52,046 nucleotides of DNA from Acidobacteriota bacterium (lineage in GTDB: Bacteria > Acidobacteriota > Vicinamibacteria > Vicinamibacterales > CAVVIG01), in NCBI GenBank assembly GCA_003222535.1, contig QHWJ01000360.1, positions 1 through 52,046 on the forward strand, given 5' to 3'. The first letter of the stretch is position 1; each line of letters starts with the position of its first letter. The notes beneath the pieces are model-generated. The model did not search any database and had not been told where the DNA came from. It saw only the letters and a program-made list of their open reading frames with translations. Positions 17,368-21,917 of the stretch are shown piece after piece. The position numbers and the translations under genes were made by a program.

Positions 17368-17851
17368 ATGAGAGCGGCCCGAGGAATGAAGGTGTTGATC
17401 GCACTCCTGTCGTTGACGGCGGCGGCCGCCTGCGGCGCCAAGAAGCCGCCGATCGCCCGGCCGACGCCGCCTCCGGTCCCACCGACGAGCACGGCGCCAT
17501 CGCGCGTTGTCCCGGCGCCGCCCGAGCCGGTCGTCGAACCGACCATCGTTCCGCCCGAGCCGGTCAGAGACGATGCGATCTCCGCAGCGTCGCTCGACGC
17601 TCCTCAAGCGGTATCCCACCTGGACCGTGACGGTGGAGGGCCACTGCGATGAACGCGGGACGGCTGAGTACAATCTGGCGTTGGGCGAGCGGCGCGCGAT
17701 TACAGCCCGCGCCTACCTCGTGTCGCTGGGCATTCCGGCCGATCGGTTGCGGACGGTCAGCTACGGCAAGGAGTTCCCCTTCGATCCGGGCCATGACGAG
17801 GCGGCGTTCGCGAAGAACCGGCGCGCGCATTTCGTCATCACCGCGAAATGA
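17368..17851 (+). pseudogene. pal: Pal peptidoglycan-associated lipoprotein, frame-disrupted
   Basis: The ATG at 17368 (ribosome site GTGGAGA) opens a lipoprotein leader ending in LTAAAAC, with Cys22 as the lipidation site. A proline-rich linker runs to [10 protein letters not shown]. The OmpA-like domain then continues in a different frame: [20 protein letters not shown] to [11 protein letters not shown], ending at 17851. At the junction, about 17590-17600, the first part of the OmpA domain is missing; related Pal proteins carry about 30 residues with the FDYDS-type strand there. This looks like a roughly 90-100 base deletion that also shifts the frame. It is either a real lesion or an assembly error; upstream and downstream tol genes are intact. 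Confidence 0.75.
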
Positions 17852-17855
17852 GCTT

Positions 17856-18707
17856 ATGACACCGAAATCCTCCGTCGCTTTCGTCGCCATCCTCGCCGTC
17901 ATCGCGACGGCGTCTCCCGCGCACGCCGCCAACAAGGAGCACCAGCAGTTGATGGCGGACCTCCGCATGTTGCAGGAACAGTCCCAGCTGCTGCAGAACC
18001 TGATCGGGACCGTCACCGACGCGCTGAAGGCGGTGAACACCCGCCTCGATCAGCAGGCCGAGACCAACCGCAGGTCGTTCGCCGATCAGAAGCTGGTGAT
18101 CGACAACCTCACGAGCGACGTCCGCGTGATCCGCGAGAAGCTGGACGACAACAACGTGCGCATCGGCTCGCTCACGCAGGAAGTCGACTCGCTCCGCCAG
18201 TCGATGCAGCAGCTCAGCGTCCGTCCGGCCGGCACGCCCGATCCGGACGGCGCGGCCGGAGTCTCGACGCCGGCGCCGGGCGGAGGGTCGCCGGGCGGCG
18301 GACCGCCGGCCGGCCCGGCTGTCGGCGTGTCACCACAGAAGTTGCTGGAGACCGCCAAGTCCGACTATTCGATCGGCCAATACGATCTGGCCATCATCGG
18401 GTTCAGCGAGTACATCAGGAGCTTTCCGAAGTCCGACATGGCTGACGACGCGCAGGTGAATATCTGCAACGCGTATTATCAGGACGCCAAGTACCAGCAG
18501 GCGGTCGATGCGTGCGACCTGGCCATCCGCCTGTATCCGACCGGCGACAAGCTTCCCGAAGCGTATTATCGAAAAGGCCTCGCGTTGAGCCAGCTCAAGG
18601 ACGTGAACGCCGCACGCGCCATGTGGGAAGAGCTCGTGAAGAGATTTCCGAACAGCCAGGAAGCCACTCTCGCGGCGCAGGGCCTCGAACGTCTGAAGCG
18701 GCCCTGA
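17856..18707 (+). CDS. cpoB: CpoB/YbgF-like TPR coordinator of cell division
   Basis: 283 residues. The signal peptide MTPKSSVAFVAILAVIATAS is followed by AHA as a cleavage site. A trimerising coiled coil (about 30-115) is rich in Gln and heptads, and a glycine/proline linker (about 118-155) follows. Three TPR units (about 160-283) appear, including YSIGQYDLAIIGFSEYIRSF and YYRKGLALSQLKDVNAA. In E. coli this periplasmic protein links Tol-Pal with PBP1b. The start lies five bases after the end of the pal frame. The gene closes the tol operon and is followed by the repeat-rich gap. Confidence 0.92.
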   Translation: MTPKSSVAFVAILAVIATASPAHAANKEHQQLMADLRMLQEQSQLLQNLIGTVTDALKAVNTRLDQQAETNRRSFADQKLVIDNLTSDVRVIREKLDDNNVRIGSLTQEVDSLRQSMQQLSVRPAGTPDPDGAAGVSTPAPGGGSPGGGPPAGPAVGVSPQKLLETAKSDYSIGQYDLAIIGFSEYIRSFPKSDMADDAQVNICNAYYQDAKYQQAVDACDLAIRLYPTGDKLPEAYYRKGLALSQLKDVNAARAMWEELVKRFPNSQEATLAAQGLERLKRP

Positions 18708-18863
18708 CGGGAGGCGCGACGTCCGTCGAACCGCGATCAGGCCGCACGCAGCTCTCTTCGGGTTGCCGCCGTCTTCAGCAGGCCCGAGATAACAGAGCAG
18801 ACGGAGTTAACGGCCAAACACGGAGAAACGAAGAAACGGAGGCCCAAAGACGCGGTTCAGCGG

Positions 18864-18886
18864 GCCGGCCTGCGTAGCAGGCCGGC
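18864..18886. repeat. Perfect 10-bp hairpin with three-base loop
   Basis: GCCGGCCTGC, then GTA, then GCAGGCCGGC. The stem is perfect and very GC-rich, and it lies in the loop of the larger inverted repeat of this gap. No T-run follows on either strand, so it does not look like a classical intrinsic terminator. A REP-like dispersed element is possible. Confidence 0.75.
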
Positions 18887-19030
18887 TGACACTGCCGAAT
18901 CGCTTCGCGACGCCCGTCGAACCCGTGTGCCTCGGCGCGTCTCCGTTCCTCTGCGCCTCCGTGTTTGGCCGTTGCCTCAATATCCTCCGTGTCCTCGCGC
19001 GGTGGCTACGCCAAAGTGAAAATCGCAGTG

Positions 19031-19142
19031 GAAGTCGGAAGTGTGAAGTACCAAGTCCGAAGTTCGAGCGGCGACGATGTAGAATGCTTTGCTCAACTTC
19101 AGACTTCAGACTTCAGACTTCAGACTTCAAACTTCTGACTTC
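19031..19142. repeat. Foldback array of 7-bp units upstream of ssb
   Basis: Left arm 19031-19065 is five imperfect GAAGTNN heptamers. Right arm 19101-19142 is six AGACTTC-type heptamers, four of them exact. The two arms are mutually complementary around a spacer of about 35 bases. The array ends directly before the GAAGGGA ribosome site of ssb, so it lies within the probable ssb leader or promoter region. Confidence 0.8.
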
Positions 19143-19156
19143 CCGAAGGGACTCCC

Positions 19157-19690
19157 ATGGGCAGCGTGAACAAAGTGATTCTGGTCGGCAATCTGGGGCG
19201 CGACGCCGAGAAGCGCTACACGCCGGGCGGCGCCGCCGTCGCAAAATTCAGCGTGGCCACGACGGAAGTCTGGACCGATAAGGCCGGCCAGCGGCAGGAA
19301 CGAACCGAGTGGCACACCATCAATCTGTGGGGCAAACAAGCGGAATCGCTGTCCGAGTATCTGACCAAGGGCCGGCAGGTATACATCGAAGGCCGGTTGC
19401 AGACCCGGAAAGCACCGCGTTGCAGAAGTTGCGATGCCTTCCTGCCGGACCGGGACTGGAACGCGAGAGACGCTCAAAAGATTCGGTGTCAGAAGTGTGA
19501 CAGCGAGGCGAAGCCGTACGCCGAAACGATGGTCGACATTCGCGCGGACCGCATATCCCTTCTCGGCAGCGGAAGTGGCGGCCGGGGCGCAGGCGTGTCG
19601 CGCATCGGCGAGGACACGATGGTCGGCCATGCTCCCGCACCGAGCCACGATTCGCCGGAACCGCTGACCGACGACGACATCCCTTTCTGA
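19157..19690 (+). CDS. ssb: Single-stranded DNA-binding protein with four-cysteine insertion
   Basis: 177 residues. The OB fold begins [20 protein letters not shown] and includes [23 protein letters not shown] and [11 protein letters not shown], and resumes at [10 protein letters not shown]. Between these two strands, where SSB normally has a short turn, there is an insert with Cys89-x2-Cys92-x18-Cys111-x2-Cys114. This resembles a zinc ribbon inside loop L45. A glycine-rich linker then leads to the acidic partner-binding tip ending DDDIPF, intact. The ribosome site GAAGGGA sits a few bases before the ATG. The core is certain; zinc binding is inferred from cysteine spacing. Confidence 0.93.
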
Positions 19691-19697
19691 CGCTCGT

Positions 19698-19782
19698 CAT
19701 GGCTGAGGGCTGAGGGCTATGGTGAATGGCTTCGTCCATCTACCTGAAGCCATCAGCCATCAGCCATCAGCCATTAGCCATG
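19698..19782. repeat. Foldback array of 7-bp units between ssb and the cupin gene
   Basis: Left arm 19700-19720 holds TGGCTGA, GGGCTGA and GGGCTAT. Right arm 19748-19782 holds five AGCCATC-type heptamers. The arms are complementary. The array lies between convergent genes; its right end supplies the stop codon and last residues (Ser-His-Gly) of the cupin protein on the minus strand. Confidence 0.8.
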
Positions 19783-20145
19783 TGAGGGTTTCTCCTCCTC
19801 CCGCCCGTATCTGTCCTCGAGGCGGACGACGTCGTGCAACTCCGGAGTCGACACCTCGAAGATGTCGCTGTCTTCGATCGCCGTCATCCGGTGCACCGTC
19901 TTCGGCGTGATGTGCACGCGCTCGCCCGGAAGCATCTCGCGCCGCGTCAGCGCTCCGTCTACTTGAATCTCGAACAGCAGCCTGCCCGAGTGCAGGTAGA
20001 TCGTCTCGTCCTTCACGTTGTGGTACTGCAGGCTCAACGCGTGGCCGGCGTTGACATGAATCAGCTTGCCCACGTACCGGTCGGTCTTCGCCCAGTGCAG
20101 CTCGAAGCCCCAGGGTTTGTTCACTCGCGTGATGTCACCGCTCAC
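19774..20145 (-). CDS. Cupin protein, mannose-6-phosphate isomerase-like
   Basis: 123 residues, one cupin barrel resembling the C-terminal domain of type II phosphomannose isomerases: RVNKPWGFELHW, then the cupin motif region LSLQYHNVKDETIYLHSG and a second motif PGERVHITPKTVHRMTA. It could bind a sugar phosphate or act as a small isomerase or sensor. The initiating GTG overlaps the ptsI stop by four bases (GTGA), so it is translationally coupled to the PTS genes and is the last gene of that unit. The C-terminus is encoded by a repeat array. Confidence 0.78.
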   Translation of the reverse strand: MSGDITRVNKPWGFELHWAKTDRYVGKLIHVNAGHALSLQYHNVKDETIYLHSGRLLFEIQVDGALTRREMLPGERVHITPKTVHRMTAIEDSDIFEVSTPELHDVVRLEDRYGREEEKPSHG

Positions 20146-21917
20146 GACGTCACCCCCTTGATCAGCGTGAGCCGGCCGAGGGCGGCCAGCAGCACGCGTT
20201 CGATTTCGTCGACGGTGGCCAGCCGCAGGATCCGGCGCGCCAGCGCCCGCAGTTCGTCGCTCCGGAGCTCCGCCAGCACCTGCTTGGCGGCCGGGATGGC
20301 CCCCGGCGTCATGCTGAACTCCGTCAACCCCAGTCCGACGAGCAGCGTGAGCAGGGCCGGGTCCGACGCCATTTCACCGCAGAGCGACACCGGAATGCGC
20401 CGGCGTGTCGCCGCCCGGCGGACCATGAGGATCATGCGCAGGATCGCCGGATGCACCGGCTCGTACAACCGCGAGACGCGCTCGTCGGCGCGATCGACGG
20501 CCAGGCAGTACTGAATAAGATCGTTGGTCCCGATGGTGAAGAAATCGACTTCGCGCGCCAGCAGATCCGCGGTGTACGCGGCCGCCGGGATTTCGATCAT
20601 CACGCCGATCGGCACGTGCGGCACGTGTTCGCCCCGCCCCCCCAGATCGGCCGCGGCCTCGACAATCATGGCCCGCGCCCGGCGGACCTGCTCGACGCTC
20701 GAGACGAACGGAAACATGATGCGGAGGTTGCCGTAGCGCGCGGCGCGCAGCAGCGCGCGGACCTGGACCCGAAACAGCTCCGGCCGCGTGAGGCTGAGCC
20801 GCAGGCCGCGCAACCCCTGGCGGCTCGCGCGCTCCTCGTCCGGCTCCCAGCCGGCGGCCAGCGGACGCTGCGAGAGCCGCGACGCGAGCTGTTCCTCGTC
20901 GACGTCGAACGTACGCACGGTCACCGAGCCGGGCGCCATGCCCTCCAGCATCCGGCGGTAGATCTCGTACTGCCGATCCTCATCGCGGATGTCGTCCACC
21001 CCGCTCGTCACGAGAAACTCGGATCGATAGAGGCCGATCCCCTCGGCCCCCGCGTATCGCGCGGCGGCGAGGTCGTCGGGGAACTCGATGTTCGCGTCGA
21101 GCCGGATGGGAACACCGTCGGCGGTCGACGCCGGCCGGCGCCGTTCGGCCTCGACCATCGCAGCCGGCCGGTGATCGTCGGCGTGCCGCGCGGCGCGCGC
21201 GAGCTCCTCGGGCGTCGGATCGAGGAGCACATCGCCCGCCGTCCCGTCGATCACGACGAGCTGTCCCGCCTGAACGCGCTCGCTCGCGTTGTGCAGGCCG
21301 ACGACAGCGGGAACGTCGAGGGAACGGGCGAGGATCGCCGTGTGGTACGTCCGGCTGCCGGCGTCGGTCCCGAAGCCGCGGACCTTGGACCAGTCCACCT
21401 GTGCCGCGATCGAGGGCGTCAGCTCGTCGGCTATGAGCACGGACGCCTCGTCGAGCTCGCGCAGCAGATCACGAGGGGTCGCGACGCCCTGCCGCAGGTT
21501 CATCCGGAGACGGCCGACCAGGTCCGCCACGTCGCCCTTGCGCTCGCGCAGGTACGGATCGGCGACGTCGTCGAACACCGCGCTGAACTCCTGGAACACC
21601 TGCTGCACGGCCCATTCGGCGTTGACCCGCTGCTCCCCCACGATGTCCGCGGCACGCGGCAGCAGCATGGGGTCGTCGAGCATCAGCAGCTGTGCGTCGA
21701 AGAGCGACGAGAGCTCCGGACGCCGCTGTGCGACGCGCGCCTGGATGTCGACGAGCTGCTCGCGCGTCCGCCCGCGGCTTTCGTCGAGCCGCCGCAACTC
21801 GTGAGCGAGCCGGGCCGCCGGAATCTGATACCGCAGCACCTGCGCGCGATGGATCAGGACGACGGCGCGACCGGCGACGACGCCCGGCGAGACGCCGATG
21901 CCCTTCACGCGTTGCAT
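20142..21917 (-). CDS. ptsI: PTS enzyme I (phosphoenolpyruvate-protein phosphotransferase)
   Basis: 591 residues. It transfers phosphate from PEP to HPr. The HPr-binding domain is N-terminal. The phosphohistidine is His192 in GSRTYHTAILARS, in which serine replaces the second glycine and tyrosine the serine of the usual GGxTSH. The PEP-binding barrel follows, with YRSEFL, MFPFVSSVEQ, the signature IGTNDLIQYCLAVDR and the proton donor region SLCGEMASDP. The ATG at 21917 overlaps the HPr gene by 13 bases. No sugar permease gene accompanies it in the window. Confidence 0.96.
   Translation of the reverse strand: MQRVKGIGVSPGVVAGRAVVLIHRAQVLRYQIPAARLAHELRRLDESRGRTREQLVDIQARVAQRRPELSSLFDAQLLMLDDPMLLPRAADIVGEQRVNAEWAVQQVFQEFSAVFDDVADPYLRERKGDVADLVGRLRMNLRQGVATPRDLLRELDEASVLIADELTPSIAAQVDWSKVRGFGTDAGSRTYHTAILARSLDVPAVVGLHNASERVQAGQLVVIDGTAGDVLLDPTPEELARAARHADDHRPAAMVEAERRRPASTADGVPIRLDANIEFPDDLAAARYAGAEGIGLYRSEFLVTSGVDDIRDEDRQYEIYRRMLEGMAPGSVTVRTFDVDEEQLASRLSQRPLAAGWEPDEERASRQGLRGLRLSLTRPELFRVQVRALLRAARYGNLRIMFPFVSSVEQVRRARAMIVEAAADLGGRGEHVPHVPIGVMIEIPAAAYTADLLAREVDFFTIGTNDLIQYCLAVDRADERVSRLYEPVHPAILRMILMVRRAATRRRIPVSLCGEMASDPALLTLLVGLGLTEFSMTPGAIPAAKQVLAELRSDELRALARRILRLATVDEIERVLLAALGRLTLIKGVTS

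Follow-up and report, generated by a model that had tools for sequence, protein, structure and literature searches.

The ssb gene in the window, the 52,046-nucleotide stretch of acidobacterial DNA analyzed here, encodes a single-stranded DNA-binding protein (SSB) in which a four-cysteine module replaces the normal L45 loop together with the aromatic residue equivalent to E. coli Trp88. Judged from sequence and a predicted model, the module probably binds zinc and adopts a C4 ribbon fold. On balance, we lean towards a housekeeping SSB whose L45 tip has given way to a structural zinc ribbon that takes over the ssDNA path of Trp88; the zinc and its effect on DNA are both what we infer. SSB is an essential, highly conserved protein, and the lineage that carries the module (hereafter Zn-type) offers a natural experiment on the roles of L45 and Trp88 in wrapping and cooperativity.

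The protein is a member of the bacterial SSB family by profile, predicted fold, acidic tip and locus. It scores 108.7 bits against PF00436 (cut-off 26; aligned residues 4-85) and 129.3 bits against TIGR00621 (cut-off 53.95), and both alignments end at residue 85, the start of the atypical part of the protein (Table 1). Downstream of the insert, an SSB beta5 strand is followed by a glycine-rich tail and the DDDIPF tip. In structure comparison, the full-length AlphaFold2 model is closest among PDB SSBs to 5odp_A (Z 15.6, rmsd 1.6, 99 aligned residues), indicating an SSB-type OB fold, and the matches to the model among viral proteins are phage SSBs. The window SSB is the only PF00436 match in its genome, an 8.06 Mb assembly that is 95.5% complete. 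An earlier note on this DNA had described an intact frame with a preserved tip, and both are borne out by the 177-aa ORF and its residues 172-177. The functional protein that the note expected is supported, at the level of sequence, by the sole-match status, synteny and purifying selection described below.

Table 1. Features of the ssb locus in window coordinates.
Feature	Position	Strand	Basis
ssb, single-stranded DNA-binding protein, 177 aa	19157..19690 (including stop)	+	ORF with ATG start; PF00436, TIGR00621
N-terminal OB-fold part, residues 1-84, beta1 to beta4	19157..19408	+	PF00436 alignment, residues 4-85; model pLDDT 93-97 per block
Zinc-ribbon-like insert, residues 85-121, replacing loop L45	19409..19519	+	Net +29 residues; 20/38 columns invariant; pLDDT 85, 82, 92
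Ala86, equivalent to E. coli Trp88	19412..19414	+	phmmer alignment TRKA/TRKW
First knuckle, Cys89-x2-Cys92	19421..19432	+	Codons 19421-19423 and 19430-19432
Second knuckle, Cys111-x2-Cys114	19487..19498	+	Codons 19487-19489 and 19496-19498
beta5, residues 121-136	19517..19564	+	AlphaFold2 model
Acidic C-terminal tip DDDIPF, residues 172-177	19670..19687	+	ORF translation; invariant in four Zn-type SSBs
pal-like and cpoB/ybgF-like genes, upstream of ssb, starts provisional	17507..18707	+	ORFs; conserved neighbors
Cupin-like gene, downstream, convergent	19774..20145	-	ORF; conserved neighbor
ptsI-like gene (PEP-protein phosphotransferase)	20142..21917	-	ORF; conserved neighbor

The defining feature of the module is the pattern Cys89-x2-Cys92-x18-Cys111-x2-Cys114 within the window SSB (residues 1-177), whose exact span (19421-19498) and spacing are confirmed as the earlier note had read them. 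Among 60 genomes compared, the window's own (G000) included, 56 match the window SSB, of which three besides the window's own carry the insert (G014, G009 and G010). The four insert-bearing SSBs represent four genera of one family. The full-length relatives are 69 and 71% identical to the window SSB, while the G010 protein is without its first 26 residues at a contig end. The four proteins agree in every one of the four cysteines and in the spacing between them, each has the two conserved CxxC knuckles of a candidate C4 zinc ribbon, and 20 of the 38 columns covering residues 84-121 are invariant. Measured from GRLQ to ADRI, this stretch is 47 residues long in Zn-type SSBs versus 18 in canonical relatives, a net gain of 29.

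The divergence pattern suggests that the insert is under purifying selection, less constrained than the core. In pairwise comparisons of the four Zn-type SSBs, dN of the insert is 0.15-0.42 with dS mostly saturated, core residues 27-83 have a dN of 0.09-0.18, and protein identity is 55-82% in the insert versus 77-88% in the same core. Third positions differ in 34-66% of codons between pairs over residues 84-121. This divergence, the same four cysteines in three genomes of other genera, and the lack of any CxxC in 157 of 161 distinct SSBs show that the insert is neither chance nor an assembly error. The 161 proteins were drawn from 217 loci, 80 of these from virus contigs. The only CxxC-bearing proteins in this set are the four Zn-type SSBs. 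A scan of genome contigs covered 80 of 564 relatives, too few to establish that the insert is absent there.

The distribution of the insert is narrow. The 27 genomes of the family divide into four with the insert (single-sequence search, own genome counted), 18 with a short loop, one whose sequence ends before the loop and four with no SSB match. The insert occurs in four of 162 genomes of the order (profile search, own genome counted) and in two of 396 genomes of an even sample of the phylum (G000 and G010), in which up to 16 candidates per genome were scored, so that a weak relative could be missed. The cysteines, on whose conservation in orthologues the earlier note had let its reading depend, are kept in all four SSBs in which the insert is found, and most of the family has a short loop instead. 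Exactly one SSB match is found in 23 of the 27 family genomes. In G025, the ssb contig (L074) ends at residue 76. The genomes with no match are G002, G003, G006 and G011, three of which are 96-100% complete by estimate, and their missing SSBs are taken as gaps, not losses. A direct sign of a gap comes from G002 alone, where the contig stops 49 bases beyond the cupin match, on the expected ssb side; in G003, G006 and G011 neither ssb nor the cupin gene is found. The window ssb is flanked by 7-base tandem arrays (ACTTCAG x6.7 at 19096-19142 and AGCCATC x4.9 at 19748-19781), and in G002 the contig breaks off in a similar repeat next to the cupin gene, suggesting that such repeats may break assemblies at the ssb locus.

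Seven records reached via other loci match in the SSB core or tail only, without the insert. In the phylum of a genome titled Lysobacteraceae (G516), 41 of 368 genomes have insert matches at E values up to 0.1; of the eight places inspected, seven again give a weak match and none has an SSB core, and the remaining matches were judged by ranges and frames alone. One 41-residue frame (L256) also matches the SSB over its full query (E 2.5e-4 in a tiny set), presumably via the same insert-like stretch. Viral contigs contain 26 stretches that match a search pattern, none of them a relative of the insert, and phage records yield four weak matches at a best E of 0.05, not one of which has an SSB annotation. 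No insert match is found in plasmids. Among the open-licence titles and abstract openings that were listed, none describes a zinc-containing bacterial SSB, and such a description might exist elsewhere. In excerpt, PMC4652220 has no passage on L45, PMC11137577 names zinc in a reference only, and PMC10122647 concerns archaeal RPA.

The insert coincides with the loss of a DNA-stacking residue. Trp40, Trp54, Phe60 and Trp88 of E. coli SSB stack on ssDNA, and most SSBs have Phe, Tyr or Trp at these positions (PMC5531588, in excerpt). The window SSB retains the first three (as W39, W52 and W58), and the phmmer alignment places its TRKA opposite TRKW of E. coli, putting Ala86 at the position of Trp88. 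This residue could be read by pattern in 158 of the 161 distinct SSBs: it is Val (three) or Ala (one) in the Zn-type proteins and Trp (122), Tyr (30) or Phe (two) in the other 154. Two further proteins were read by eye (L110, Tyr; L183, Trp), and L074 ends before the position. The aromatic is therefore kept in all 156 readable SSBs without the insert and lost wherever the insert is present, a pattern that connects the module with the path of the DNA. L45 changes when DNA is bound and has been associated with both quaternary association and cooperativity; the same source calls the functional importance of its movement unclear (PMC3983218, in excerpt).

The predicted structure places the module at L45. 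AlphaFold2 was run on the full-length window SSB with a 131-row alignment, only four rows of which contain the insert. Mean pLDDT is 85.6, with 93-97 per block for residues 1-90 and 85, 82 and 92 for the insert blocks (residues 91-120) of the monomer. Strands 74-88 and 121-136, which correspond to beta4 and beta5, bracket the insert, so the module replaces L45, at the position that the earlier note had given and that the short L45 occupies in canonical relatives. Within the insert, DSSP assigns short pieces at residue 95, 109-110 and 117-118 and a turn at 103-105. For the putative ribbon structure itself the models differ: the insert is modeled at pLDDT 82-92 in the full-length protein, but reaches only 69.4, a low confidence, when folded alone from the four sequences.

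Comparisons of the isolated insert with known folds are weak throughout. Foldseek returns no match at E <= 0.001, and the VIA structure search gives a best Z of 3.9, with Z >= 2 in 34 of 596 chains and an NZF domain, LysW and rubredoxins in the top rows. Sequence searches likewise return weak zinc-ribbon matches, the best (E 0.00016) from one Zn-type member. Seven Pfam families are weakly matched by three of the four insert stretches, among them zf-ChsH2 (PF12172; best E 0.0021), and the window insert's own seven Pfam matches all fall below cut-off. The missing strong fold match says nothing against a ribbon, and the zinc-ribbon reading draws on the conservation of all four cysteines and on the model of the complete protein rather than on a fold match. 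When a profile of the insert (window 19418-19528, residues 88-124) is compared with PDB sequences, the archaeal PolD DP2 zinc finger ranks first (6knb_B, E 0.048). Matches of the NMD3, PolD and thioredoxin types are too weak to name any one as the source of the insert.

The order pal-cpoB-ssb-cupin-ptsI surrounds Zn-type and canonical ssb alike in most family loci with contigs long enough, while the G010 contig covers the cupin and ptsI side only. The names pal, cpoB/ybgF, cupin and ptsI are presumptive. An identical locus with and without the insert, together with one SSB match per genome, marks the Zn-type ssb as the housekeeping gene. None of the 80 viral loci contains the pal, cpoB, cupin or ptsI neighbors. 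The same acidobacterial locus also appears in records titled Bifidobacterium breve (L040, CALQBJ020000166.1), Acidimicrobiia (L049, L087) and Cyanobacteria (L101), titles that look wrong for this reason. Two kinds of ssb allele occupy the one locus (L003-L028; window 17507-21917), an HRVVLW-like kind with QTRQW and an H[NT][IV][DN]LW kind with either TDEY or the zinc module.

Trees of ssb and of its neighbors disagree. Neighbor genes were used for the species tree because rpoB is found in only 19 of the 27 family genomes, often in pieces; the resulting tree comprises four proteins, 24 rows and 800 columns and includes the three Zn-type genomes with enough data. These three fall with five canonical genomes in a group of eight (support 100/99). 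The neighbor data reject holding the three Zn-type genomes together (p-AU 0.00017) and disfavor uniting Zn-type genomes with the short-loop TDEY genomes (p-AU 0.017). The ssb core tree, built from about 100 columns with the insert left out, instead unites the four Zn-type rows (support 83/87), and 96% of 200 bootstrap trees keep them as one group against the other labeled rows. A group of ten (98/84) contains the Zn-type rows, four of TDEY type, a truncated SSB of the family and L121, which comes from a virus contig; the virus-contig SSBs L119 and L120 lie next to this group (94/91). The ssb data reject the neighbor-gene group of eight (p-AU 2.7e-67) and two further neighbor-gene groupings (p-AU 0.00019 and 0.00018). 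A tree in which L121 and the truncated member fall outside the eight Zn-type and TDEY rows is not rejected (p-AU 0.27), so the position of the phage copy in the tree is provisional.

This conflict suggests that the ssb gene alone was replaced in place. Going by these sequences, an older ssb allele was likely replaced in several lineages of the family, a grading short of proof because the clades were defined with trees already at hand and the alignment of the ssb core provides only about 100 columns. At core positions 30, 49, 54 and 56, the lineage that includes the Zn-type (seven rows, G010 not counted) has no residue in common with the canonical proteins (20 rows), and the module probably arose once, inside the SSB lineage that these positions set apart. 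In the L121 record (IMG/VR 3300037515_000645), a segment of about 165 additional bases (L121:2845-3009) sits in frame close to the start of the ssb ORF, is bounded by GC-rich inverted pieces and leaves the frame open. This segment, which we take to resemble a small element of the IS200/IS605 type, is not listed by the repeat search.

The zinc ribbon that we favor would prolong strands beta4 and beta5, and its rigidity would stiffen L45, while new contacts with DNA would substitute for the one lost with Trp88. The basic residues that are invariant in Zn-type SSBs (R84, K85, R88, R90, R99, R110 and K113) might lie on the DNA backbone, with the aromatics conserved in the insert region (F95, F/W101 and Y121) near the bases. 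Net charge over residues 86-121 is +2 in all four Zn-type proteins versus a mean of +0.16 (range -1 to 1) in 77 short loops, which are much shorter; over 36 residues this is a modest charge because conserved acids (D93, D98, D100 and E117) are present as well. A tetramer like that of E. coli SSB would display four ribbons. Wrapping mode, site size or cooperativity might then be altered, and full binding might depend on zinc, as zinc loss weakens RPA, while recruitment of partners via the acidic tip would stay ordinary. A more ambitious reading, which we hold tentatively and with some doubt, is that an RPA-like zinc ribbon evolved independently in L45 of the sole replication SSB, replaced the Trp88 contact, conferred a zinc-dependent binding mode and spread by in-place replacement of ssb, in a lineage shared with phages. 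With a zinc ribbon at L45, the Zn-type SSB would also parallel DBD-C of RPA by convergence and could provide an SSB whose binding mode depends on metal.

The main rival holds that the ribbon is a module for protein docking or for contacts between tetramers, affecting cooperativity or partner binding without touching DNA. The ties of L45 in E. coli SSB to quaternary association and cooperativity speak for such a role (PMC3983218, in excerpt), as does a crystal in which PriB dimers sandwich DNA through their L45 loops (PMC4129139, in excerpt). Docking alone, however, leaves the loss of the stacking aromatic in all four proteins unexplained, and no linked partner gene is evident, since the immediate neighbors do not differ between loci that have the insert and loci that lack it; we regard this rival as rather unlikely. 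The ribbon might also act as a zinc or redox switch, its CxxC pairs losing zinc or forming disulfides under stress and thereby tuning ssDNA binding. C4 sites can undergo oxidation, which counts in favor of a switch, but the sequence bears no sign of one over a structural site. RPA requires its zinc (PMC8329085, in excerpt), a further point for a switch, which on the whole seems improbable.

Restriction of the insert to four of 27 family genomes and its faster evolution relative to the core would suit a tolerated, functionally neutral loop insertion stabilized by zinc. Yet the same 20 of 38 columns and all four cysteines are kept across four genera in the sole SSB match of each genome, and a neutral change would not be expected to remove the Trp88 aromatic, making neutrality decidedly improbable. 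The four insert genomes are fragmented, with about 120 to 920 contigs, and one could ask whether the module reflects a frameshift, a chimeric assembly or a second, non-housekeeping SSB. Such an artefact deserves almost no credence: the same frame in four genomes, the same locus and the sole PF00436 match led to the rejection of the artefact, frameshift and second-copy readings.

A putative zinc ribbon on the DNA path of a housekeeping SSB can be compared with several known systems. Like E. coli SSB and the PF00436 and TIGR00621 families, the window SSB has the OB fold, three of the four stacking aromatics, the DDDIPF tip and a single match in its genome; unlike E. coli SSB, it has a C4 module in L45, a net 29 additional residues and a non-aromatic residue at the Trp88 position. 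The IMG/VR proteins L119, L120 and L121 belong to the same lineage in the core tree (94/91 and 98/84), but have an ordinary short L45 with Tyr and no CxxC. Proteins of the DUF35 family (PF01796; SSO2064) and zf-ChsH2 (PF12172) also combine a zinc ribbon and an OB fold in one chain, although in SSO2064-type proteins an N-terminal ribbon precedes the OB fold and the suggested role is acyl-CoA binding (PMC2954200, in excerpt). The PolD DP2 zinc finger (6knb_B) shares CxxC, RCxKCDxE and PY with the insert, but PolD DP2 is an unrelated enzyme and the match (E 0.048) is not significant, reflecting a common ribbon type or chance.

A functional parallel might be RPA. Eukaryotic RPA1 DBD-C and the archaeal DBD-C-like domain likewise carry a C4 finger within a loop of an ssDNA-binding OB fold; in DBD-C the finger comprises three short strands between beta1 and beta2 and contacts the DNA backbone, and RPA that loses its zinc binds ssDNA less well (PMC8329085, in excerpt). 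In the window SSB, a bacterial protein, the insert instead joins beta4 to beta5, and the sequence searches made return no relation of the insert to RPA. The window SSB is thus not an RPA member, but by analogy it may work like DBD-C.
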